A DNA stretch of 64,000 bases from Rhodoblastus acidophilus (lineage in GTDB: Bacteria > Pseudomonadota > Alphaproteobacteria > Rhizobiales > Beijerinckiaceae). The position numbers and the translations under genes were made by a program. The notes beneath the pieces were generated by a model. That model was not told where the DNA came from and did not search any database. It saw only the letters and a program-made list of their open reading frames with translations. The DNA is taken from the NCBI RefSeq assembly GCF_900187365.1, contig NZ_FYDG01000003.1, positions 62,001 to 126,000 of the forward strand, read 5' to 3'. Positions within the stretch are counted from its first letter, which is position 1, and each line of letters begins with the position of its first letter. This document shows positions 20,000 to 51,889 of the stretch, piece by piece.

Positions 20000-20746
20000 A
20001 TGAGCGGCGCGGGCGCGGCGGTCGCGCGGCAGATGCTGCGCCTCAGCAATCCCGAGGACGTGGCCGAGCAGGCGGCGCAATGGCTGCTCGCGGTCGCTTT
20101 GGGGACCGAAGGCCCTTTCGTTCTGTGCCTGTCCGGCGGCGAGACGCCCCGGCCGCTCTACCAGCGTCTCGCGGCGCCGCCCTATCGCGCCGCCTTTCCC
20201 TGGGAGCGGACGCATGTGTTCTGGGGCGACGAACGCTTCGTGCCGCACGACGACCCGCGCAGCAATTTCCGCATGGCGCGCGATACGCTGCTGTCGCGCG
20301 CGCCGCTGCCTTCGCAGAACATTCATCCGGTCCCGTCGGCCGCGAGCGCGCGGGCGGCGGCGATCGCCTACCAGCGCGAACTGGCGCTGTTTTACGGGTC
20401 GGAAATTCTGACCCGCGCGCGTCCATTGTTCGACGTCACGCTGCTCGGCCTGGGCGCCGACGGCCACATGGGATCGCTGTTTCCCGGCGACGAGGCGCTC
20501 TGCCAGCGCGAGGGCTGGACGGCGGCTGTCGTCGGCCCCGACGGCCTTGAGCGGGTCGCGCTGACCTATCCCGCGCTCGACAACAGCCGGCGCATCGCGT
20601 TTCTGGTGACGGGCGCGCAAAAGAGCGCCGCGCTGGCGCGCCTCATGCGCGGCGACCGCGCGCTGCCGGCGACCTATTTGCGCCCGGCCGGGGAGATCCG
20701 TCTGTTCGTGGACGCCGCCGCCGCGCAGGAACTCGAAACGCTTTAA
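20000..20746 (+). CDS. pgl: 6-phosphogluconolactonase
   Basis: 248 residues, DevB/SOL family. It hydrolyses 6-phosphogluconolactone made by Zwf. The family motif LGLGADGHMGSLFPG lies near 150-164, and VFWGDERFVP near 73-82. The ATG at 20000 sits 1 base after the zwf stop; an in-frame TTG at 19982 inside zwf is a less likely start. Last gene of the operon. Its 3' end overlaps the convergent norD gene by 4 bases, leaving no room for a bidirectional terminator. Confidence 0.94.
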   Translation: MSGAGAAVARQMLRLSNPEDVAEQAAQWLLAVALGTEGPFVLCLSGGETPRPLYQRLAAPPYRAAFPWERTHVFWGDERFVPHDDPRSNFRMARDTLLSRAPLPSQNIHPVPSAASARAAAIAYQRELALFYGSEILTRARPLFDVTLLGLGADGHMGSLFPGDEALCQREGWTAAVVGPDGLERVALTYPALDNSRRIAFLVTGAQKSAALARLMRGDRALPATYLRPAGEIRLFVDAAAAQELETL

Positions 20747-22689
20747 CGCACCAGATGCCGATAGATCGCCGGAAGCGCGGTCGCGAGCTTCTCCGGCTGC
20801 GATACAAGAGCGAAACCCGCCGGCCCGAATAGATGCTGCAGGCTGGCGCGCCGCTGGCTGTCGATGGCGACGCAGAACACGGATTGCCCGAGCCGTCGCG
20901 CCTCCATCACCGCGCGCCGCGTGTCCTCGACGCCGTAGCGACCTTCGTAATGGTCGAGATCGTTCGGCTTGCCGTCGCTGATCAGCAGCAGCAGTTTGCG
21001 CGCATTGGGCCGCCGCGAAAGTTTGAACGACGCATGGCGCAGCGCCGCGCCGATGCGCGTATAAAACCCCGGCTTCAACCCGGCGATGCGCGCATCCACG
21101 CGCGGCCCGAACGGCTCGTCGAACTGCTTGCAGATGTCGAAGAAAACCTTTTCGCGTTTTAGTGAGGAAAACGCATAGATCGCGAGGTCGTCGTCGCACG
21201 CGTCGAGTCCGCGCGCCAGCGCCACCAAAGCCTCGCGCGCCACCGCGATCACCGGACGCCCCTGGACGGCGCTCTCGGTCGAGCGCGAGCCGTCGAACAG
21301 AACGGCCACCGCAAGATCGCGCTCGTCGTTGCGCGCGTCGCGATACAGCCGGTCGCTCGACGCGCCGCAAGCGCGCCTGTCGGCGCGCGCGCGCAAAATT
21401 TCGTCGAGATCGAGTTCGCTTCCCTCGATCTGCCGCCCGAGCACGCGCCGTTTCGGCCGAAGCGTCTCGAACTGCTTTTTCACGGCGTTGATGCGCTTCC
21501 GTGCGGCGGCGTCGAGCACGAGGCCCTGGGGCGCTTCCTCCGCGACATTTTCGAGAATGCGCGCCTGACCGGGAACGAGAGTTTCCTTCTTCCAGTCCCA
21601 TTCGGGATAGATGAACTTGCCCGAAAATTTCTCGCGGTCGCCGTCCTCCGGCGCGAGATCGAGATCGAATTTCAGCCGCGTCCTCGGCTTCTTGCTGTGC
21701 TGCGCGACGTCGATACGTTCGGCGTCTTGCGCGGCCTTTTTCGCATTGTCCTCGTCCTCATCCTCGACATGGCGATTGAGGTTGAGAAAATCGCCGAACG
21801 ACAACAGCGACTCGAAGCGGTACAGCAGCAGCGAATCTTTCCGCTCCGCCTGATCGCTCTTTTGCCGCCTCGCCTTCTTGGTTTCCTCGGCGCCTTCCGC
21901 GCCGCCGCCGCCCGGCTCTTGCGACTCCGCGCTGCGGCGCCCGCTTGGCGCGGGCGGGGGCGCGCGCTCGCCCCACAGCAACACCGGACGACAGGGCCGG
22001 TATTTCGGCGGCGCGGTCAGTGCGGCGAAGGACTCATAGTCGCCGGCCAGCGCGCGGCGCAGCGGCGTGTCGATGGCGGCGGGCTCCTGTGCGAGCCGCG
22101 CACAGATCCAGTTTTCCAACTCGGCTTCGACCGGCGGCGCGGACAGTTTCGCACGGGCCGTCAGCGTGGCGGCGTAAAGGTCGTTGCGAATTGCGCGCAG
22201 CCCGGCGAAGGCCGCGACCACTTTTTCGCTGTCGCGATGCGCGCAGCGCAGCCGCACGATGTCGCGTTGCAGCGGATCTTCGAACACGAGGTTGGGCGGC
22301 GTCGCAACCACCGCCAGCGCCGCCAGCCAGAGGTAGAGTTGGCGGTTGAGTCCGGCGTCGGGAAACACGTCCAGCTCGCGCGGCAGAAACAGCGTGACGC
22401 CATCGAACCGCGCCGACTTCACCCGCTCTGTGTCGCGCGCCAGCCGCCGCCGCCACGAGCGGCGATGCTCGGAAACCTCGTCGCCGCACGCCTTGATCTC
22501 GACGCCCGCTTCGCCGCCGAGGCCGCGAAACAGCACGCCCAGCGATCCCTTCACCGAAGCCAGCGCGACTGCGGCTTCGGAGTGGCGCGGCTCGGCGTCG
22601 AGCTTTTGCACGGCGCGGTCCCAAAAGGTCCCGACCGCCTCCTCCGGCTCCCAGAATTTTGAGTCTTTTAGCGCGCGCAAGAATGACAT
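20743..22689 (-). CDS. norD: NorD, nitric oxide reductase activation protein
   Basis: 648 residues. Required for assembly or activation of cytochrome c-dependent NO reductase together with the NorQ ATPase. The C-terminal von Willebrand A domain (about 465-640) has the metal-site motif DGSRSTES. The centre (about 255-330) is a charged, low-complexity stretch with an acidic run (VEDEDEDNAKK). No membrane segments. Start ATG is 5 bases after the norQ stop. Last gene of the norEFCBQD operon. Confidence 0.93.
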   Translation of the reverse strand: MSFLRALKDSKFWEPEEAVGTFWDRAVQKLDAEPRHSEAAVALASVKGSLGVLFRGLGGEAGVEIKACGDEVSEHRRSWRRRLARDTERVKSARFDGVTLFLPRELDVFPDAGLNRQLYLWLAALAVVATPPNLVFEDPLQRDIVRLRCAHRDSEKVVAAFAGLRAIRNDLYAATLTARAKLSAPPVEAELENWICARLAQEPAAIDTPLRRALAGDYESFAALTAPPKYRPCRPVLLWGERAPPPAPSGRRSAESQEPGGGGAEGAEETKKARRQKSDQAERKDSLLLYRFESLLSFGDFLNLNRHVEDEDEDNAKKAAQDAERIDVAQHSKKPRTRLKFDLDLAPEDGDREKFSGKFIYPEWDWKKETLVPGQARILENVAEEAPQGLVLDAAARKRINAVKKQFETLRPKRRVLGRQIEGSELDLDEILRARADRRACGASSDRLYRDARNDERDLAVAVLFDGSRSTESAVQGRPVIAVAREALVALARGLDACDDDLAIYAFSSLKREKVFFDICKQFDEPFGPRVDARIAGLKPGFYTRIGAALRHASFKLSRRPNARKLLLLISDGKPNDLDHYEGRYGVEDTRRAVMEARRLGQSVFCVAIDSQRRASLQHLFGPAGFALVSQPEKLATALPAIYRHLVR

Positions 22690-22694
22690 GGACT

Positions 22695-23498
22695 TTATCC
22701 CAGCGTGACTTGCGCCAGATCGCGCAACCCCGCGCGCACGTCAAAATCGTCGGTGAGCGGCTCGATCAGCGTCGCCTCGATCGCCTCATCGCGCTTCATG
22801 CCATCGGCCATAAGCGAAGCGCAGGCGACCAGCAGGCGGGTGGAGGCGCCTTCCTCCAGATCCTGCCCCTTCAAGGCCCGCAACCGTCCCGCCAGCCGCA
22901 CCAGTTGCGCGCAAGCCCCCGCCGCCAGCCCGCTCTCGCGCGCGACGATTTCGGTTTCGGCCTCGGCGTTGGGATAGTCGAACGAAATGGCGACAAACCG
23001 CTGCCGCGTCGAGGGTTTTAGCGTTTTCAGCACCGACTGGTAGCCGGGGTTGTACGAGATCACCAGCATGAAATCGTCGGGCGCGTGCAGCGTTTCCCCT
23101 GTGCGGTCGAGCGGCAGAATGCGGCGGTCGTCGGTGAGCGGATGCAGCACCACGGTGACGTCCTTGCGCGCCTCCACGACTTCATCGAGGTAACAAATTC
23201 CCCCTCGACGAACAGCGCGGGTCAGCGGCCCGTCGCTCCAGACGGTTTCGTCATTCTTGATGAGATAGCGGCCGGTGAGATCGGCGGCGGCGAGATCGTC
23301 ATGGCAGGCGATGGTGTCGAGCGGGAGATTCAACTTTGCCGCCATATGCGCGACGAAGCGGGTCTTGCCGCAGCCGGTCGGCCCCTTGAGCAGCACGGGC
23401 AAACGGCGCCGGAACGCGGCTTCAAAAATTTCGCATTCGCGGCCTTGCGGCTGGTAGAACGGGACTTCCTTATGCGCGGCGACGGCGGCGAGATGCAT
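22695..23498 (-). CDS. norQ: NorQ, MoxR-type AAA ATPase for NO reductase
   Basis: 267 residues from the ATG at 23498, which has GGAG six bases upstream; an in-frame TTG at 23510 is less likely. Walker A is GPTGCGKT (39-46). The Walker B-type segment ICYLDEVVEARKD follows near 100-112, as in CbbQ/NorQ proteins. With NorD it forms a chaperone that probably inserts the non-haem iron of NorB. It is separated from norB by 73 bases containing a stable hairpin repeat. Confidence 0.95.
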   Translation of the reverse strand: MHLAAVAAHKEVPFYQPQGRECEIFEAAFRRRLPVLLKGPTGCGKTRFVAHMAAKLNLPLDTIACHDDLAAADLTGRYLIKNDETVWSDGPLTRAVRRGGICYLDEVVEARKDVTVVLHPLTDDRRILPLDRTGETLHAPDDFMLVISYNPGYQSVLKTLKPSTRQRFVAISFDYPNAEAETEIVARESGLAAGACAQLVRLAGRLRALKGQDLEEGASTRLLVACASLMADGMKRDEAIEATLIEPLTDDFDVRAGLRDLAQVTLG

Positions 23499-23534
23499 TG
23501 TAAGCTCCAAGAATCTTGAGAGGCCACGGGCCGG

Positions 23535-23562
23535 TCCCTCTCCCCGCTCGCGGGGAGAGGGA
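23535..23562. repeat. Hairpin repeat between norB and norQ
   Basis: Perfect 12-base stem (TCCCTCTCCCCG and its complement) with a 4-base CTCG loop. It is one of four related dispersed copies in this window (others at 57362, 60375 and 60492). There is no T-run, so it is not a standard terminator; inside an operon it could stabilise the upstream norCB mRNA. Confidence 0.75.
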
Positions 23563-23571
23563 GCGGATGCG

Positions 23572-24930
23572 TCACTCAGCTGCTGCGGGAACCGCGCCGG
23601 CGACTGGCGCCGTCTTCGTGCGCGGCATCAGCAGCAGCGAGGCAATGAACAGCAGGGCGCCCAGCACCGTCACCGCGCCGCCGCCGAAGCGCAGCAGGTA
23701 GAACAGGCCGATCTGGTCCTGCGCGTCCATGTAGCTCAGGCCCTGCACGCGCTCGAGGTGCGATTGCAGCACGCCCGCGAAGGTCAGCGACACCGTCATG
23801 AACACCACGCCCGCCGAGGTGATCCAGAACGAGGCGATGTTCAGGATCTGGTTATACGGCGCGCGGTTGAACAGATACGGGAAGGCGTAGGTCATGATCG
23901 CCAGGTTCAGGCAGACATAGGCGCCGTAGAAGGCGAGATGTCCGTGAGCGGCGGTGACTTGCGTGCCGTGGGTGTAGAAGTTCACGCCGTGCAACGTGTG
24001 CAGGAAGCCCCACACGCCCGCGCCGAAGAAGGCGAGAACCGAGCAGCCCAGCGACCAGATCATCGCGGCCTTGTTCGGATGGTCGCGGCGACCCTTCCAC
24101 GCCATGGCGAAGCAGAAGATCATCATGCCGAAGAAGGGGACGACTTCGAGCGAGGAGAACACCGAGCCGATCCACTGCCAGTAGCCGGGTGCGCCGATCC
24201 AGTAATAATGGTGGCCGGTGCCGAGGATGCCCGAGAACAGGGCGGTGGCGATGATGATGTACAGCCACTTCTCGATCACTTCACGATCGACGCCGGTGAT
24301 CTTCAGCATCAGGAAGGCGAGCACCGAGGCCATCACCAGCTCCCACGTGCCTTCCACCCACAGATGCACCACATACCACCAGAACATCTTGTCTTCCGAG
24401 GTGTTGTGCGGAACGTAGAGCGAGAACAGGAAGAAGACGGCGATGCCCCACAGGCCCAGCAGCAGCACGTTGGTGATCGCGGTCTTGCGGCCCTGCAGCA
24501 CGGTCATGGAGATGTTGAACAGGAAGATCAACGCCGCCACGATGATGCCGAGCTTGATCCATAGCGGCTGTTCCAGATAGGAGCGGGCGTGATCCGCGTA
24601 GATGTGGAACAGATAGCCGACCACCGCCGAAAGGCCGCCGAGGAAGAAGATCGCGAACTGGATGTAGGCGAGCTTGGGCGAGTAAATCTCGCGCTCGGAT
24701 TCTTCGGGAACGAGATAATAGGCGGCGCCGAAAAAGCCCAGCAGCAGCCAGACGATCAGGGCGTTGGTGTGGATCATGCGCACCATGTTGAACGGAAAAT
24801 ATTCAACCGGCAGCAGGTTGGGCATGATGTAGATGAGTCCGCCGACCAGGCCGAACGAGACCTGTACGGCGAAGATGAGCAGCGCGCCAAGCCAATAGGT
24901 CTTGGCTATATTCTGTGTCTGATATTGCAT
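23572..24930 (-). CDS. norB: Nitric oxide reductase subunit B (cNorB)
   Basis: 452 residues, about 12 membrane helices. Catalytic subunit that reduces two NO to N2O. The length and lack of an N-terminal quinol-oxidase extension fit the short cytochrome c-dependent type. Haem and iron ligands are visible in MIHTNALIVWLL (near 52-63), HLWVEGTWE (near 194-202), GHHYYWIG (near 244-251) and the AAHGHLAFYG segment. Strong GGAGG lies 5 bases before the ATG. It follows norC by 15 bases. Confidence 0.97.
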   Translation of the reverse strand: MQYQTQNIAKTYWLGALLIFAVQVSFGLVGGLIYIMPNLLPVEYFPFNMVRMIHTNALIVWLLLGFFGAAYYLVPEESEREIYSPKLAYIQFAIFFLGGLSAVVGYLFHIYADHARSYLEQPLWIKLGIIVAALIFLFNISMTVLQGRKTAITNVLLLGLWGIAVFFLFSLYVPHNTSEDKMFWWYVVHLWVEGTWELVMASVLAFLMLKITGVDREVIEKWLYIIIATALFSGILGTGHHYYWIGAPGYWQWIGSVFSSLEVVPFFGMMIFCFAMAWKGRRDHPNKAAMIWSLGCSVLAFFGAGVWGFLHTLHGVNFYTHGTQVTAAHGHLAFYGAYVCLNLAIMTYAFPYLFNRAPYNQILNIASFWITSAGVVFMTVSLTFAGVLQSHLERVQGLSYMDAQDQIGLFYLLRFGGGAVTVLGALLFIASLLLMPRTKTAPVAGAVPAAAE

Positions 24931-24945
24931 TCAAACCTCCGGAGA

Positions 24946-25401
24946 TCAGTTGGCCTTGGGCCGCGGCGGCCAGCCTTGCGTGTTGGTGCGGGACACCCAG
25001 GCGAGGTAATCGGCGAGATCGTCGAGTTGGGCTTCGGTCAGGTGGAAGTTGGGCATCTGGCGGCGCCCCTGCGCGCCGGATGGCTGCGACTTCATCCAGT
25101 CCTTGATCATCTGGTGCGCGCCGGCCGGATCGGTCTCGCCGCCCCAGCGCTTGAACACGTCGCCGACTTCCGGCGCGAAGCGTGCGCCTTCGCCATGCAG
25201 CGTGTGGCAATCGAAGCAGGCGTTGCGTTCCCACACGCCCTTGCCGCGCACCACCGATTCCGTGAGATGCGCTTCATCCGTGCCCTTCGTCAGGATGTAG
25301 TTGCGGCTCTGCGCCGTCAGCCCCACGAAGATCGCGAAGAAGAACAGCGACCCGCCGTAGAAAATATTTCGGGCCGTGGATTTGGTCAGGACTTCACTCA
25401 T
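24946..25401 (-). CDS. norC: Nitric oxide reductase subunit C
   Basis: 151 residues, membrane-anchored monohaem cytochrome c delivering electrons to NorB. One N-terminal helix (about 14-30), haem-binding C62-x-x-C65-H66 and likely distal ligand M116 (RQMPNF). A GGGAG site precedes the ATG. The start overlaps the norF stop by 4 bases. Confidence 0.96.
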   Translation of the reverse strand: MSEVLTKSTARNIFYGGSLFFFAIFVGLTAQSRNYILTKGTDEAHLTESVVRGKGVWERNACFDCHTLHGEGARFAPEVGDVFKRWGGETDPAGAHQMIKDWMKSQPSGAQGRRQMPNFHLTEAQLDDLADYLAWVSRTNTQGWPPRPKAN

Positions 25402-45379: not shown

Positions 45380-46477
45380 TCAGCCGCGACGCTCCCGCAG
45401 CAGAAAAGCCCAGGCGAGGGTCGCGCTCGCGACGCCAAAGCCGACGAGCAGGGCGGCGTAAAGCGCGATCCGTCCGGCGTCCGACCCGCGCCAGAGCAGA
45501 TCCTGATAGGCTTCGATGGCCCAGGCGTTGGGCGTCAACAGGCTGACGTCCTGCAGCCAGCGCGGCATCAGGTAGCGCGGGATCATCGACCCGCCGACGG
45601 CGGACAGGATCATCACCAGAAAGGCCGAAAGGGTCTGCGCCTGCTGCCGGGTGCGGCAGACGGCGCAGAGCAGCAGGGCGGCGCCGGCCGCCATCGCCGC
45701 CGCGGCGAGGGTGACGAGGCTCCAGCCCGCCAGCCGGTCCATGACGGCGACGCCATAGAGCGCCGCCGCGACCACGAAGATGATGCCGACCTGCAGCGTT
45801 CCCTGCAAGGTCAGAAACAGGAATTTGCCGCTCACCGCCTTGGCCAGCCCACCCGCGCTCGACGTGAGACGGTCGAGAATTGCGTTGCGCCGCTCGTCGA
45901 TCAGCAGCATGGCGCCCTGGCTGGCGGAAATCAGCAGGAACAGAATCCCGACCGCGCCGGCGTAATAAACGGTGGGGGCGTCGGCGTGGGCGGCGCGCGC
46001 GATCTGCGCCAACTCCACCAGCGGCGCCGCGCCGGTCCTGTCGGCCGCGCCGGCTTGATTATCCCCAAGCAGTTTCTGCACGCGCCCGACCACCACGGGC
46101 GCCGCCACCGGGCGGCTGGCGTCGCCCAGCACGACGACGGGCGCGTCGGCGGAGGGCAGGGCGGGATCGCTGCGAATGACCACGCCGGCGTCCACGTCGC
46201 CGCGCCGCACCGCCTGCTCCAGCCCGGCGCGGCTGGCGGGGCGCAGCGCCACGACCAGCCGGTCGTCGCCCGCGATCGCTGAAACGATCCGGCGCGATCC
46301 CGCGGTTTCGGCCTGATCGAACAAAGCGACGCTCAGTTGCAGCTTGTCCCCGGCGGTTCCCGAGAAAATGGAGGCGAAGATGAGATAGATGGCGGCGGGC
46401 AGGGCGAAGGCCATCACCAGCGCGCCGCGGTCGCGCAGCAGATCGAGCGCCATCACGCGCATCATGGCGACGATCAT
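45380..46477 (-). CDS. ABC-2 type exporter permease
   Basis: 365 residues. One helix near 20-40, an extracellular domain of about 130 residues, then five helices from about 170, the layout of ABC-2 permeases of the YhhJ/CcmB-like drug or lipid export class. Signatures are FLLISASQGAMLLIDERRN near 175-193 and GGSMIPRYLMPRWLQ near 290-304. The ATG overlaps the ATPase stop by 4 bases. Confidence 0.88.
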   Translation of the reverse strand: MIVAMMRVMALDLLRDRGALVMAFALPAAIYLIFASIFSGTAGDKLQLSVALFDQAETAGSRRIVSAIAGDDRLVVALRPASRAGLEQAVRRGDVDAGVVIRSDPALPSADAPVVVLGDASRPVAAPVVVGRVQKLLGDNQAGAADRTGAAPLVELAQIARAAHADAPTVYYAGAVGILFLLISASQGAMLLIDERRNAILDRLTSSAGGLAKAVSGKFLFLTLQGTLQVGIIFVVAAALYGVAVMDRLAGWSLVTLAAAAMAAGAALLLCAVCRTRQQAQTLSAFLVMILSAVGGSMIPRYLMPRWLQDVSLLTPNAWAIEAYQDLLWRGSDAGRIALYAALLVGFGVASATLAWAFLLRERRG

Positions 46478-47463
46478 GGCGCCGTCTCCTGTTGCGTCCC
46501 GCGCAGGAACAGGCTGGACAGGTCGGGCTCGCGCACCCGGATTTCCCGAACGCGCAAACCGCTGTGGCTCAGCCGCCGTTGCAGATCCGCGACGTCGACG
46601 GCGTCGGCGGCGTCGTAACGCACCCATTGCGTTTCCGACACATGCGGCGCGAAGCCGTCGGCCTCCAGCGCGGCGCGTTGCGGCGCGTCGGCGGGCGCGC
46701 GCAGCTCCGCCACCACTTCGAGCCGATCCCCGAACGCCTCGCGGACCAGCGCCTCGGGGCGCCCCTCAAGGCCGATGCGCCCGTTCTGGACGAGGCCGAC
46801 GCGGCTGCAAAGACGCTGCGCCTGGTCGAGGTCATGGGTCGAGACCAAAATGGCCGCGCCCTTGCGCCTCAAATCGTCGAGCAGGCGATGAATCGCCTCG
46901 CGCGCGTCAATGTCGATGCCGACGGTCGGCTCGTCGAGCAGCAGCACGCGCGGACGCTTGAGCAGCGCGACGCAGATGTTGACCCGCCGCTGATAGCCGC
47001 CCGACAGCGTCGCGCAAATCTGGTCGGCGCGCGCCGCGAGGCCGGTTTCGTCCATCAGGATGCGGATCAGATCCGCCGCCTGGGGCACGCCGGCGGCGCC
47101 GGCGAACACTTGGAGGTTCTCCTTCACCGTCAGATGGTGATAGAGCGAAATTTCCTGCGGCGCGAAGCCGATCGCCGACAGCCGCGACGGTTCGCGCAGA
47201 ATATCGGCGCCCTCGATCAGGATCTCGCCGCCGTTCAGCCTGACGCGGCCGGAGATCGCCTTCATCAGGGTGGTCTTGCCGACGCCGTTCGGCCCGAGCA
47301 GGCCGTAAATCTCTCCCTTGAACAGATCGAGATCGAGACCGGAGAAAACCCCGCGGCCCTTGAAGGCGTGAACGGCGTTGCGCACCCGCACCACCGGCGC
47401 GGCGCCGTTCCCGTCGAGAGCCTTGCGGGCTTCCGGTTTCGTCATCGTCGCAGCATCGGTCAT
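46474..47463 (-). CDS. ABC exporter ATP-binding protein
   Basis: 329 residues. Walker A GPNGVGKTT (about 58-66), signature LSGGYQRR (about 155-162), Walker B VLLLDEPTVGID and the H-loop STHDLDQ follow the drug/polyketide exporter type. About 75 C-terminal residues form an extra regulatory region. GAGG four bases before the ATG at 47463 supports this start over one 27 bases upstream. It forms a two-gene transporter with the following permease; no membrane fusion protein is nearby. Confidence 0.9.
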   Translation of the reverse strand: MTDAATMTKPEARKALDGNGAAPVVRVRNAVHAFKGRGVFSGLDLDLFKGEIYGLLGPNGVGKTTLMKAISGRVRLNGGEILIEGADILREPSRLSAIGFAPQEISLYHHLTVKENLQVFAGAAGVPQAADLIRILMDETGLAARADQICATLSGGYQRRVNICVALLKRPRVLLLDEPTVGIDIDAREAIHRLLDDLRRKGAAILVSTHDLDQAQRLCSRVGLVQNGRIGLEGRPEALVREAFGDRLEVVAELRAPADAPQRAALEADGFAPHVSETQWVRYDAADAVDVADLQRRLSHSGLRVREIRVREPDLSSLFLRGTQQETAP

Positions 47464-47544
47464 GGCGCCTCGGCGGGGAGCATCGTCCATCCGTCAACCG
47501 CAAGCCCGCCCGTAAAGTTCCCGCTTGCCGGCTCGGGCGCGCGA

Positions 47545-47793
47545 TCAAGCGCTTTCTTGCGCCGCCACCAGCATCAGATTGGGCGTGTTGCGCACCGCGC
47601 GCAGGTCGGCGGCGCGGTCCTGCATGGCGCCGATCAGATGTTCGACGCCGCGATCCAGCGATTCCGGCCGCAGCCCCGAGGCGGTCAGCGCATCCACCGC
47701 GCGCTCCGCCAGCATGAAGGCGATGGCTTCCGGCCCGCAGCCGTCGAGCCGCATCGCGGCGACGCAGGTGTTGAGAAGAATTTCTGCACGCAT
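47545..47793 (-). CDS. Uncharacterised 82-residue protein near the nif module
   Basis: Begins MRAEILLNTCVAAMRLDGCG and is mostly helical with two cysteines (9 and 19); no known domain recognised. The ATG at 47793 has AGGAG six bases upstream; the frame extends to 47844 but without a ribosome site. It lies 255 bases downstream of the A-type carrier gene and 81 bases upstream of the ABC ATPase, all on the minus strand. Membership in the nif operon is uncertain. Confidence 0.65.
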   Translation of the reverse strand: MRAEILLNTCVAAMRLDGCGPEAIAFMLAERAVDALTASGLRPESLDRGVEHLIGAMQDRAADLRAVRNTPNLMLVAAQESA

Positions 47794-48048
47794 GAGGGTC
47801 TCCTGTGTGACGGGATCGTCAATCCCTTCGGGGAAACGGCTCATGCCGCATCGGACGCCAAGGCGTCGGGCGAAAGAAGCGCCGGCGCCGCGTCAGGGGC
47901 GCCTGGACCTGTTGTTGCAAAAGCTGGGCCAGAGTTTTGGCGCGGAAATCCGCGAAATCCTGCGGCCCAGGCGTTCATCTGCGAACTTTTCGCGTGGAAA
48001 TTGACCTCCGGGGGAAATTCCACACGCCAAGTTCAGCGCGCGTCCCCG

Positions 48049-48399
48049 TCAGGCGGGTTTCGCGCAGGAACAGGCGCCCGCCGGTTTCGACGCGCAATTG
48101 GCGGCCTGCTCCTCGGTGGGCAGAGCCAGCGCGAAATTGAAGCCGAAATTGTCCGGGTCTTCCGAATAATCGACGGTGGCGCCGGCGAGAATGGCGGCGG
48201 AGTCCTGATCCATGAACACGCGGACGTCGCGGATTTCCACCACCGTGTCGTTCGGCGCCGGGTCCGGCTCGATCCGCATGGAATATTTCGGGCCGGAGCA
48301 GCCGGCTTCGGCCGTGATGCGCACGCCCTGGCCGCGTTTGTCGTTGGCGACAAGCGAGGCTTCGATGGCGGCGATGGCCGGACGGGTCAGAATCAGCAT
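48049..48399 (-). CDS. A-type Fe-S carrier (HesB/IscA family, nif-associated)
   Basis: 116 residues. The three cysteines of the family are C34 (EAGCSGPKYSM) and the C-terminal C110-x-C112; C102 is extra. They bind iron or a [2Fe-2S]/[4Fe-4S] cluster for transfer to targets such as NifB. The spacing between strands and the Cys-rich tail differs from housekeeping IscA, as in nif-linked versions. The ATG at 48399 has GGA at 7 bases; one at 48411 does not. Downstream of the ferredoxin by 43 bases. Confidence 0.88.
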   Translation of the reverse strand: MLILTRPAIAAIEASLVANDKRGQGVRITAEAGCSGPKYSMRIEPDPAPNDTVVEIRDVRVFMDQDSAAILAGATVDYSEDPDNFGFNFALALPTEEQAANCASKPAGACSCAKPA

Positions 48400-48442
48400 G
48401 TCGTCTTCCATCCTTGTTCGGGCGGTGTCGGGCGCCCTGGCT

Positions 48443-48631
48443 TCAGGCTTTGATGATGGTCTTCTCGACCGGGCAGACGCCGATGCAGCGCGGCTCCTCG
48501 CCCTCGCATTCCGTGCATTTGGCGGCGGCGATGGCGAAATTGTCGCCCTTCATGGCGATGGCGGCGTTGGGGCATTCGAATTCGCAAGCGCCGCAGGCGG
48601 AGCATTGCGAGGCGACAATTTTAAAGGCCAT
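48443..48631 (-). CDS. 2[4Fe-4S] ferredoxin, nif-associated
   Basis: 62 residues. Cluster 1: C10-x2-C13-x2-C16-x3-C20; cluster 2: C39-x2-C42-x6-C49-x3-C53. The longer loop in the second motif is typical of FdxN/FdxB-type ferredoxins near nifB, which donate electrons to nitrogenase or supply NifB. AGGAG lies 8 bases before the ATG. It is 24 bases downstream of nifB. Confidence 0.95.
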
Positions 48632-48655: not shown

Positions 48656-50086
48656 TCATGCGTCGGCGTCGGCCTCGGCGCAGCGCGCGGCGTAAAGCGC
48701 GGCGATGGACGGCTCGATGTATTCGTGGGCGTAGGCGTCGCTCGGCTCGATGCCGGCCGCCTTGAGTTCGCCGCGCGGGCAGCCGCCGATTTTGGCGCAC
48801 AGCATCACGTCGCAATCCCGGATCAGCTCGACGATCCGCGACAGCGAGGAGTCCTCGCCCAGCCCGCCCTGGCAGTACTGATCGTCAATTTTCCGCGCGC
48901 CGAGAAATTTCACGCCCAAGGCGTCGGCGCGATAGATCAAGAACTCTTTCGCATGGCCGAAATGCAGGTTGATCAGCGCGTCGCCCTTGCTGGCGACCGC
49001 GACGGTCAGCACGCGCCCCGGCTTGGTTTCGGCAGGCTTCACCGCCATGCGGGCGAAGGCCGCAAGCTCGCGTTTGGCCTCGATCTGCCGGCGATAGGCC
49101 TCGCGCTTGGCGGGATTGACCTCGATCGTCTCCGGCAGCTTGTCGAGGGTGAATTCCTGGCCGCGATCCTCGCCCAGCATGCCCACGGCGTCGGCGCGGC
49201 ACTGGCGGCAATGCCGCATCAATTTCGCTCCGCCCTCGCAGGCGTCCTGAACCTTCTTCAGCTCCTCGGCGGTCGGGCCGCGCTGGCCGGTCAGGCCGAA
49301 ATGCGTCCCATGGGCGGGATCGGAAATCAGCGGCATGACATTGTGCAGGAAGGCGCCGCGCTTTTTGACCTCGCGGTTGACCGCGATCAGATGTTCGTCG
49401 TTGATTCCGGGGATCAGCACCGAATTGACCTTCACCAGCACGCCGCGCGCGACCAGCATGTCCAGGCCGAGCATCTGCCGCTCATGCAGGATTTTGGCGG
49501 CCTCCAGCCCCTCGTAACGCTTGTGCTTGTAGAAGATCCACGGATAGATTTTCGCGCCGATTTCGGGGTCGATCATGTTGATGGTGATGGTGACGTGGTC
49601 GATATTCATGGCGACGATCTCGTCGACATGATCGGGCAAAGCGAGGCCGTTGGTGGACAGGCACAGTTTGATGTCCGGCAGGTCCGTGGCCACCGCCGCG
49701 AACGTCGCCTTGGTCTTGCGCCAGTCGTAGAGGGCGTCGCCGGGGCCGGCGATTCCCAGCACGGAGAGTTGCGGCACGCTCGCGGCCACCGCCAGAACCT
49801 TTTTCGCCCCCTGTTCCGGCGTCAGCCGCTCGGAGACGACGCCGGGGCGGCTCTCGTTGGCGCAATCATATTTGCGATTGCAGTAATTGCACTGGATGTT
49901 GCACGCGGGCGCGACCGCGACATGCATCCGGGCGAAATAATGATGCGCTTCCTCGGAATAGCAGGGGTGATCCTTGACCTTGGCCCAGACCTCCGGGGCC
50001 ATGTCTTCGGGCGCGGCGGAGGACCCGCAAGCGGAGGCCGAACACCCGCCGGAGGGGAGCGCGTCGATCAGGGGTTTGGCGATCAT
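48656..50086 (-). CDS. nifB: NifB, nitrogenase cofactor radical SAM enzyme
   Basis: 476 residues. It fuses two [4Fe-4S] clusters with carbide insertion to make NifB-co, the precursor of all nitrogenase cofactors. The radical SAM motif is C62-x3-C66-x2-C69 (ACNIQCNYCN). HCRQCRADAVGMLGEDRG lies near 298-315, and the C-terminal NifX-like domain starts near 345 (VLTVAVASKGDALINLHFGH). GAGG lies 8 bases before the ATG, which overlaps the nifA-like stop by 4 bases; the longer upstream frame is inside that gene. Confidence 0.98.
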   Translation of the reverse strand: MIAKPLIDALPSGGCSASACGSSAAPEDMAPEVWAKVKDHPCYSEEAHHYFARMHVAVAPACNIQCNYCNRKYDCANESRPGVVSERLTPEQGAKKVLAVAASVPQLSVLGIAGPGDALYDWRKTKATFAAVATDLPDIKLCLSTNGLALPDHVDEIVAMNIDHVTITINMIDPEIGAKIYPWIFYKHKRYEGLEAAKILHERQMLGLDMLVARGVLVKVNSVLIPGINDEHLIAVNREVKKRGAFLHNVMPLISDPAHGTHFGLTGQRGPTAEELKKVQDACEGGAKLMRHCRQCRADAVGMLGEDRGQEFTLDKLPETIEVNPAKREAYRRQIEAKRELAAFARMAVKPAETKPGRVLTVAVASKGDALINLHFGHAKEFLIYRADALGVKFLGARKIDDQYCQGGLGEDSSLSRIVELIRDCDVMLCAKIGGCPRGELKAAGIEPSDAYAHEYIEPSIAALYAARCAEADADA

Positions 50087-51399
50087 GTCTTTGTCCTCAC
50101 GACGCGTTCTCCAAATGACTCCTTGCGCCGCAGCGCCAGCCGCGCGCGCCGCAATTGGGCGGAAAAACAGCGACCCTGCCGGCAGGCGAAATCGCTTTCG
50201 CAAATTTCCTCGCCCGTCGTCAGCGCGGCGGCGTTGCGCAGGCAGTTTTCCAACTCACGAATGTTGCCGGGATAGGCGCAGCGCCCGATCATGGTTTTCG
50301 CACGGGGGTTCAGCGCCAAGGCCCGACCGTTTTCCGCGTTGAATCGCGCCAAAAAATGCTCGGCCAGCGCCGGAATGTCCTCGCGCCGCTCGCGCAGGGC
50401 CGGCAGGCGCACCGGCGCCGCGCACAGCCGGTAATAGAGGTCGGCGCGAAACTTTTTCGCGCGCACCGCCGCTTCGAGATCGCTGGCCGTGGCGGCGATC
50501 ACCCGCACATCGACCCGCAGCGTCCGTTCGCCCCCGACGCGCTCGAACTCCCCGGACTGCAACACCCGCAGCAGTTTTGATTGAAACGCCGGGGAAACCT
50601 CGCCGATCTCGTCGAGCAGCAGCGTTCCGCCACGCGCCTGTTCAAACCGCCCCTTGCGCCGCTTATCGGCGCCGGTGAACGCGCCGCGCTCATGGCCGAA
50701 CAGCTCCGCTTCCAGCAGCGGTTCGGGCAGGGCGGCGCAATTCACCTTCACGAACGCCCTGGCGGCGCGGGGGGAATGGTCGTGGATCAATTGCGCGACC
50801 AGCTCTTTGCCGACGCCGCTCTCGCCGCGCAGCAGCACGGGCAGAGAGGTGGGCGCGACCCGCCGCGCGTGGTCGAGCGCCGCGCGCAAGGCCGGGCTTT
50901 CGCCAATGATCCGCTTGCCGCCGACGCTCCCCTCAGCGCAGGACGCGCTCCCGTCTCGCGCCGTCTTGACGGCGGCGCCGAGCAGATTGGCGACCAGCGC
51001 CAGCGCCGTCAGCTCGTCGCCGCGCACGACGGGGCCGGCGACCCGCGCCGCCAACAGCCCGATCAGCGCGCCGCCGAGTCGGATCGGCGCGCCGATCGTC
51101 GGCGAGCGCTCGTTGCGCAGCACGCCGGCTTCGCCCCGGGCCAAAAATGTCTCCAGCCTGGGCGTCATCGGCAGGGCGGGCGCGTCGGCGGCGCGCCCGG
51201 CGAGGCCGCGCAGGCTATGGCCTTCGACCAGCGCGATCCCGGCGTCGGTCAGGCCGATCTCGCCCAGCAGCGCCACCACCCTGCGCAGCGATGGCAGCGC
51301 CGGCCCCGGCAGCGCCAGCGTCGCGGCGATGTCGCCAATCGTCGCCAGCGGCGACGTCAGCGCCAAAGGCGGGGCGGTGAGACGGGCGTGCGCGTTCAT
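50083..51399 (-). CDS. nifA: NifA-like sigma-54 activator lacking the C-terminal HTH
   Basis: 438 residues. A GAF-like N-terminal domain (about 20-147) is followed by a complete sigma-54 AAA+ domain: Walker A GESGVGKE (192-199), GAFTGA (239-244), Walker B LLLDE (260-264). The redox/metal cysteine motif of alphaproteobacterial NifA is perfect: C374-X11-C386-X19-C406-X4-C411. Only 27 residues follow C411, and no Fis-type helix-turn-helix is present; the stop overlaps the nifB start. NifA proteins normally have 520-600 residues. It may activate without a DNA site, or be a degraded copy. It starts 4 bases after the Nfu gene. Confidence 0.85.
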   Translation of the reverse strand: MNAHARLTAPPLALTSPLATIGDIAATLALPGPALPSLRRVVALLGEIGLTDAGIALVEGHSLRGLAGRAADAPALPMTPRLETFLARGEAGVLRNERSPTIGAPIRLGGALIGLLAARVAGPVVRGDELTALALVANLLGAAVKTARDGSASCAEGSVGGKRIIGESPALRAALDHARRVAPTSLPVLLRGESGVGKELVAQLIHDHSPRAARAFVKVNCAALPEPLLEAELFGHERGAFTGADKRRKGRFEQARGGTLLLDEIGEVSPAFQSKLLRVLQSGEFERVGGERTLRVDVRVIAATASDLEAAVRAKKFRADLYYRLCAAPVRLPALRERREDIPALAEHFLARFNAENGRALALNPRAKTMIGRCAYPGNIRELENCLRNAAALTTGEEICESDFACRQGRCFSAQLRRARLALRRKESFGERVVRTKT

Positions 51400-51728: not shown

Positions 51729-51744
51729 AGCAAATGACGGGCCA
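51729..51744 (-). promoter_or_regulatory. Sigma-54 (-24/-12) promoter of the nif module
   Basis: On the minus strand TGGCCCGTCATTTGCT matches TGGCACG-N4-TTGCW with one change, with GG and GC at the exact spacing required. Transcription would start near 51718, giving a leader of about 78 bases before the Nfu gene. It would drive nfu-nifA-nifB-fdx-iscA-like genes. Confidence 0.8.
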
Positions 51745-51872: not shown

Positions 51873-51889
51873 ATGTAAAGTGATTACAT
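51873..51889. promoter_or_regulatory. Inverted repeat upstream of the nif promoter, possible activator site
   Basis: ATGTAA-N5-TTACAT, perfect 6-base arms. It contains TGT-N9-ACA, one base short of the NifA site TGT-N10-ACA. Its centre is about 145 bases upstream of the -24/-12 element, a normal distance for an enhancer. It could instead bind an unrelated regulator; the argC start lies about 220 bases away on the other side. Confidence 0.45.

Follow-up and report, generated by a model that had tools for sequence, protein, structure and literature searches.

Sigma-54 activators without a helix-turn-helix (HTH) DNA-binding domain are few. In the extracts of the papers on which we draw, cited by PMC number throughout, FlgR, CtcC and FleT are named (PMC7175178); FlgR and CtcC constitute an HTH-less group of the bacterial enhancer-binding proteins (bEBPs), and the GAF/NifA group is tabulated as HTH-bearing (PMC7175178). 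Here we describe a NifA-like protein that has no HTH, referred to as the short NifA, whose gene adjoins a second copy of nifB (nifB') in a 64,000-nucleotide stretch of the genome of Rhodoblastus acidophilus (contig NZ_FYDG01000003.1, positions 62,001 to 126,000), which we call the window. The same form, likewise without an HTH, is encoded by three congeneric genomes.

Isolated NifA central domains can reportedly activate transcription, according to older work. The short NifA shares with alpha-proteobacterial NifA (TIGR01817; bEBP group 3) the AAA+ domain, the GAFTGA loop, the cysteine motif C-X11-C-X19-C-X4-C and a place before nifB, and differs from it in the missing HTH, an N-terminus about 50 residues shorter, two extra invariant cysteines and the absence of the sensor-I Asn. 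The cysteine set has been linked to redox sensing in the NifA of alpha- and beta-proteobacteria (PMC10590331).

FleT from Cereibacter (Rhodobacter) sphaeroides has no DNA-binding domain, does not activate transcription alone and works with FleQ (PMC11999139), which it joins with a resulting switch of promoter class (PMC11999139, PMC7277832). Its expression is under FleQ and RpoN2 (PMC11999139, PMC7277832), and it has been called the only bEBP without both regulatory and DNA-binding domains (PMC7175178). Both FleT and the short NifA are sigma-54 activators without a DNA-binding domain in cells that contain HTH-bearing paralogues, and the presumed operon of the short NifA has a sigma-54-like promoter that may place it under comparable control. 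However, FleT belongs to the flagellar system; the short NifA retains a partial GAF-like region and a cysteine sensor, and its hetero-oligomer is a proposal. FlgR and CtcC are not known to carry the NifA cysteine set. Like the short NifA they have no HTH (PMC7175178, PMC7482065), but they have response-regulator receiver domains, which the short NifA does not.

In Azotobacter vinelandii, VnfA1, VnfA2 and VnfA3 are extra bEBP paralogues tied to the control of the V and Fe nitrogenases. The VnfA paralogues form hetero-oligomers when they regulate these alternative nitrogenases, and VnfA1 and VnfA3 possess similar DNA-binding recognition helices (PMC9542535), so those paralogues carry DNA-binding domains. 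The short protein, by contrast, clusters with NifAs, apart from the VnfA-type proteins that its genome encodes.

Domain architecture without an HTH

The results from the Pfam scan place Sigma54_activat at residues 164–330 of the short NifA and an AAA+ lid at 336–404, and neither an HTH nor a receiver domain was found in that scan. The N-terminus reached 14.1 bits with the GAF model, below the cut-off of 22.4, while a profile comparison aligned it to the N-terminus of NifA. TIGR01817 (nifA) was the top NCBIfam model with 434.4 bits (cut-off 528.85), the match spanning only profile positions 194–453 of 534. The sequence includes the motifs GESGVGKE (position 192), GAFTGA (239), LLLDEIGE (260), FRADLYYR (317) and GNIREL (378), and the sigma-54 AAA+ domain contains Walker A, Walker B, the arginine fingers and GAFTGA. 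The cysteine motif is formed by C374, C386, C406 and C411, with a further 27 residues from C411 to the C-terminus. An earlier note on this DNA had read Walker A, GAFTGA and the four cysteines from the letters alone, and the translation reproduces them exactly; the ending without an HTH, also described there, agrees with both the translation and the Pfam result.

A profile of the NifA HTH, derived from 45 tails, was run on six-frame stop-free stretches of at least 15 residues in the window and in three sister loci. Nothing convincing was detected near the short nifA in any frame (best match there E value 0.7), which bears out the earlier statement that the other frames hold no HTH remnant. The full-length NifA of the genome, used as the positive control, was recovered with an E value of 1.8e-31, and the remaining four matches below 0.01 were the HTHs of VnfA-like proteins.

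Conservation and divergence of the short form

An ortholog search of 60 genomes, including that of the window, identified orthologues in three congeneric genomes (G001, G005 and G006; hereafter the sisters) with 72–75% identity over positions 1–423 or more. All three lack the HTH and end 18, 17 and 16 residues after the fourth Cys, respectively. The truncation that the earlier note had described in one strain is, therefore, conserved in relatives, and neither a resequencing error nor sisters that all carry an HTH, the two outcomes it had held to count against its reading, was found. A sequencing error or recent truncation was rejected as an explanation, since the three congeners end within 2 residues of one another after the fourth Cys and have no HTH in any nearby frame. 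Each of the 44 full-length NifAs from family and order that were inspected and carry the Cys motif has 90–202 residues after the motif together with an HTH signature.

The earlier note had also reasoned that the ending is settled because the stop of the short nifA is fused to the start of nifB (ATGA). The overlap exists and the ending is indeed settled, but it is the retention of the loss in three sister genomes that argues for this; the overlap, like the longer tail, is peculiar to the window genome among the four carriers. At the corresponding junction in the sisters the short nifA stop lies in TGAGGAG, a few bases upstream of the nifB ATG, where it merges with an apparent nifB ribosome-binding site.

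The short protein is not the only NifA of the cell, a possibility that was discarded when the second, full-length nifA sought in the genome was located on contig 47. It encodes 602 residues with the four cysteines and an HTH, and all four carriers possess such a full-length NifA. Eight other places in the window genome match the AAA+ core of the short NifA. Two further NifA-related activators, at C38:243.8 kb and C39:73.3 kb, are named VnfA-like and AnfA-like because they adjoin vnfDGK-like and anfHDGK-like genes, respectively; the former scores 490 bits against the nifA model, under the cut-off.

In the phylogenetic tree the four short NifAs form one clade (support 100/100) apart from the full-length NifAs of the genus. 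The stem of this clade amounts to 1.05 changes per column in a tree of 61 rows and 1.66 in a tree with 10 fewer NifAs, and the AAA+ core is 55–57% identical to that of the carriers' full-length NifAs. By its sequence, then, the short NifA is a diverged paralogue. The ratio of nonsynonymous to synonymous substitution rates (dN/dS; Nei-Gojobori method, own script), calculated for the six pairs of short NifAs, was 0.13–0.19 from the AAA+ domain to the fourth Cys, 0.39–0.68 in the N-terminus and 0.24–0.50 in the tail, while the full-length NifAs that accompany them in these genomes gave 0.04–0.12 in the core and 0.04–0.16 in the N-terminus. The core is under purifying selection and the N-terminal region is relaxed; the figures indicate that engine and sensor are preserved, less tightly than in an ordinary NifA, and that the N-terminus is drifting. 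None of the four genes has a frame break in the core, and a TGA flagged in the G005 match is the protein's own stop, the core of that gene being free of stops.

At least 92% of the 44 full-length NifAs agree in 133 alignment columns; the four short proteins all retain the shared residue in 101 of these and all depart from it in 15. They show no variation in the four redox cysteines or the main catalytic motifs, and the C-X11-C-X19-C-X4-C motif is also found in 44 of the 44 full-length NifAs. Two of the 15 altered columns stand out. The Asn at position 305, which we take to be sensor I in name and role, is present in all 44 and is replaced with Ala or His in the four short proteins, and Trp417, equally universal in the full-length NifAs, is Arg in all four, inside a conserved LRRAR tail. 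Furthermore, two extra cysteines, C326 and C400, occur in every short protein and in none of the 44.

The short form was not detected outside the genus in searches of the family (347 genomes) or the class (385), own genome included and with the top 4–5 candidates scored per genome; it was found in 4 genomes of the first and 1 of the second, all of the genus. When the contigs were scanned with the short protein as a single query, the best 80 of 588 loci had a best-segment identity of at most 58%, nearly all in the AAA+ part. A plasmid scan yielded 228 records, in none of which a single place covered 80% of the query. A phylum scan with TIGR01817 (398 genomes, 3 candidates scored per genome) is little informative on short paralogues, because the window's own short gene was not among the matches listed; four of its rows above the cut-off end at profile position 442–449 with no neighbouring match noted. 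The HTH profile, applied to 10 class NifAs, revealed an in-frame HTH in 9. The tenth, L191 (G421:C1, about 1764852–1766057), from another family, is no second HTH-less NifA, since its HTH lies in a second frame (E value 6.6e-27); its frame breaks between the AAA+ part and the HTH, either truly or through sequencing error, in contrast to the clean loss in the short nifA. As judged by titles and abstract openings among the matches listed, no HTH-less NifA appeared in the literature within the scope of the search, to which most subscription journals were external.

Control region, alternative nitrogenases and neighbouring genes

Upstream of the run that contains the short nifA, a sigma-54-like site and a palindrome, ATGTAA-N5-TTACAT, are present in all four carriers (coordinates for the window are given in Table 1). 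By our own scoring the sigma-54-like site TGGCCCGTCATTTGCT obtains 14 of 15 and is one of 3 sites with that score in the 64 kb. In the 4.7-Mb window genome the exact palindrome occurs twice, upstream of the presumed operon and before vnfA, against about 0.009 occurrences expected from base composition. Its distance to the sigma-54-like site is 145 bp in the window genome and 142 bp, to the site of nifE, in each of the three sisters, where it sits between a VnfA-like gene and nifE. Exact copies number one in G001, one in G006 and two in G005, and among the seven non-carriers of the genus six have none and G009 has one; the additional copies are at G009:C150:53944-53960 and G005:C39:38769-38785. 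The reversed pattern, searched as a control, matched in G006 only. In three carriers, degenerate palindromes (1–3 mismatches) occur at position -145 or -146 relative to vnfD; the fourth gave no vnfD start, and the comparison was made without a chance control.

The motif published for VnfA of A. vinelandii is GT(T/A)C-N6-GTAC (PMC9542535) and that for alpha-proteobacterial AnfA is TAC-N6-GTA (PMC7294313); the latter overlaps the palindrome in three of the four carriers, but not in the window genome. The palindrome fits a VnfA-type site, and VnfA would then be the likely regulator of the operon. NifA-type sites (TGT-N10-ACA) before the operon were absent from three of the four carriers. The exception is G005, whose vnfA-nifE intergenic region has two (L147:4505-4537), which suggests a direct NifA input to the short-nifA operon in that species.

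In the sisters the gene order on one strand is nifE, nifN, a TIM-barrel-like gene, a NifU-like gene and the short nifA, and next to this run, of which nifE is the first gene, are a nifH-like gene and, in divergent orientation, a VnfA-like activator. Based on strand and spacing, nifE to nifB probably form one operon in these genomes. The products of nifE and nifN scored above their cut-offs in G001 and that of nifH in G005, and the G005 locus includes a NifX-like gene under the cut-off. VnfD is encoded within 10 kb of the short nifA in G005 and G006 and on a separate contig in G001. In the window genome the module of NifU-like gene, short nifA, nifB' and Fe-S genes is detached but intact; vnfD is on the same contig, at a distance of about 135 kb.

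Across the genus, VnfD above the curated cut-off was found in 4 of 11 genomes (own included), which are exactly the four carriers of the short nifA, and in none of the seven others. The same distribution holds for a second alternative-nitrogenase alpha subunit and for a nifB of the short-gene type beside another nifB. In the window genome the second alpha subunit obtains about 700 bits against the VnfD model and 848 bits, above the cut-off, against the alternative-nitrogenase alpha model; the label Anf is based on gene order and these bit scores. The carriers are one clade by their full-length NifA as well. Five of the non-carriers (G002, G004, G007, G009 and G010; L160, L161, L153, L164 and L162, respectively) are without VnfD and have a second full-length NifA that belongs to a separate clade; in the four gene maps L160, L161, L162 and L164 it lies upstream of nifB in an apparent Mo-nif cluster. 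The pMMO family (PF02461) was not matched in any of the 11 genus genomes, a weak negative, as the controls gave no match either.

Table 1. Features of the short-nifA locus (positions in the window)
Feature	Position	Strand	Remarks
Short NifA-like activator, 438 residues	50083..51399	-	shortened GAF-like region, AAA+, four redox cysteines, no HTH
Sigma-54 -24/-12-like promoter TGGCCCGTCATTTGCT	51729..51744	-	the NifU-like gene starts about 90 bp downstream; consensus match only
Palindrome ATGTAA-N5-TTACAT	51873..51889		candidate activator site, putatively VnfA-type
Second nifB copy (nifB')	48656..50086	-	start overlaps the short nifA stop (ATGA)
Small NifU C-terminal-domain-like protein, 78 residues	51404..51640	-	first gene of the presumed operon
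4Fe-4S dicluster ferredoxin-like protein	48443..48631	-	YfhL-type ferredoxin, 57.4 bits, under cut-off of 86; downstream of nifB
HesB/IscA-like Fe-S assembly accessory protein	48049..48411	-	TIGR00049, 61.5 bits, above cut-off of 58.8

The product of nifB' shares 89–92% identity with the NifB encoded next to each sister short nifA and 64–66% with the remaining NifB in the four carriers. Another contig opens with a fragment (G000:C60:1-591; L150:28-594) that is 98% identical to residues 280–476 of the window nifB product; this is either a further copy of the gene or a repeat arising from assembly. The NifU-like protein matches TIGR02000 with 58 bits over residues 7–76, far under the cut-off of 273.3, and a NifU-like neighbour is also present in the three sister sequences. 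Beyond this module, a second strong -24/-12-like site, TGGCCCAGCTTTTGCA (47916-47931, minus strand), just precedes a 99-residue open reading frame (47545-47844) without an NCBIfam match, and a pair of open reading frames at 45380-47490 resembles, by eye, an ABC-2 transporter; both may be under sigma-54 control too. A block at 20743-25401 resembles the nitric-oxide reductase cluster norCBQD, again by eye and from the starts of its reading frames.

Possible role of the short NifA

We propose that the short NifA is a NifA-derived, HTH-less sigma-54 activator subunit of the alternative-nitrogenase regulon, gated by oxygen, which in the manner of FleT would form mixed hexamers together with a paralogue that has an HTH, a reading that we hold to be about evenly poised between right and wrong. 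The earlier note had named a partner of a full-length NifA as one of three possible roles, and this role is among those that we favour. The protein would be made together with the second NifB and Fe-S proteins from the sigma-54 promoter, which the palindrome common to vnfA precedes. Retaining a working-looking AAA+ engine, a sigma-54-contacting loop and the oxygen-sensing cysteines, it would most likely enter mixed hexamers with full-length NifA or with VnfA/AnfA as an oxygen-gated subunit, the gating being suggested by the tie of its cysteine set to redox sensing in NifA. These hexamers would alter the promoters chosen or the strength of activation, as FleT does with FleQ. In favour of this reading are the orthologues that all end soon after the fourth Cys, their single clade, the constrained core with its invariant cysteines and catalytic motifs, the co-occurrence with VnfD, the upstream elements shared by the four carriers and the full-length NifA in each of them; FleT and the hetero-oligomers of VnfA paralogues (PMC11999139, PMC9542535) are the precedents.

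Several observations weigh against this proposal. The loss of the sensor-I Asn in all four short proteins means that the coupling of the ATPase to sigma-54 may be altered, although ZraR carries a His at the same place in the alignment, and the change alone does not, therefore, imply inactivity. The palindrome differs from the published VnfA and AnfA motifs, so that another regulator is possible. Moreover, since the four carriers are one clade, the association with vnf within the genus counts as one evolutionary event and not as four. Finally, no short form was detected in 5 of the 9 alternative-nitrogenase genomes of the family sample or in 1 of the 2 of the class sample, all six of them outside the genus, which indicates that the short NifA is not generally needed.

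The first alternative is that the short NifA is an autonomous activator, which would form its own hexamer and act from solution on the sigma-54 holoenzyme at its own or at strong vnf/nif promoters, with no upstream site and with oxygen gating through the cysteines. The intact catalytic motifs and GAFTGA of all four proteins are compatible with such a role, for which the group-5 bEBPs FlgR and CtcC offer a precedent without HTH (PMC7175178, PMC7482065), and the Arg-rich LRRAR tail might allow weak contact with nucleic acid. However, FlgR and CtcC have receiver domains and the short NifA does not, the missing sensor-I Asn speaks against independent activity, and an untargeted activator would risk poor specificity in a cell with eight other matches to its AAA+ core. 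We regard autonomous action as unlikely.

Somewhat less probable still is an oxygen-gated brake or decoy, which would join the rings of NifA or VnfA/AnfA, or occupy the holoenzyme, and lower activation, for example by keeping Mo-nif off under the alternative systems. In Azotobacter, VnfA1 represses anfA and complexes with AnfA have been suggested (PMC9542535). The loss of the HTH with retention of the AAA+ and sigma-54-contact motifs would suit a brake, as would the loss of the sensor-I Asn in four of four proteins, but a pure decoy would need neither Walker A and B, the arginine fingers nor GAFTGA, all of which are kept in a core with dN/dS of 0.13–0.19. That the short NifA is a decaying relic of an old nifA, retained on account of its position within the nifB operon, is very improbable: the lost HTH, the shortened N-terminus, the higher dN/dS outside the core and the long stem branch would be in keeping with decay, but the core is constrained and unbroken in all four genes, and the window module is intact although the vnfDGK-like genes are about 135 kb away.

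A broader version of the mixed-hexamer proposal is more tentative. The four proteins may represent a new, HTH-less NifA class through which oxygen, and perhaps also metal status, bears on the choice among Mo-, V- and Fe-nitrogenase. Each would be a six-cysteine AAA+ subunit (C326, C374, C386, C400, C406 and C411) supplied by the vnf regulon that joins NifA/VnfA rings and re-targets or re-tunes them; we consider this possible but doubtful. If the mixed-hexamer proposal is true, a conserved case of the NifA type would show one way in which cells with three nitrogenases divide the activator roles, one subunit being bound to DNA and the other free. Being small and having extra cysteines, the short NifA would be a practical protein for studying how NifA senses oxygen, and, should these cysteines complete a metal site, the protein would provide a compact handle on the NifA redox cluster.

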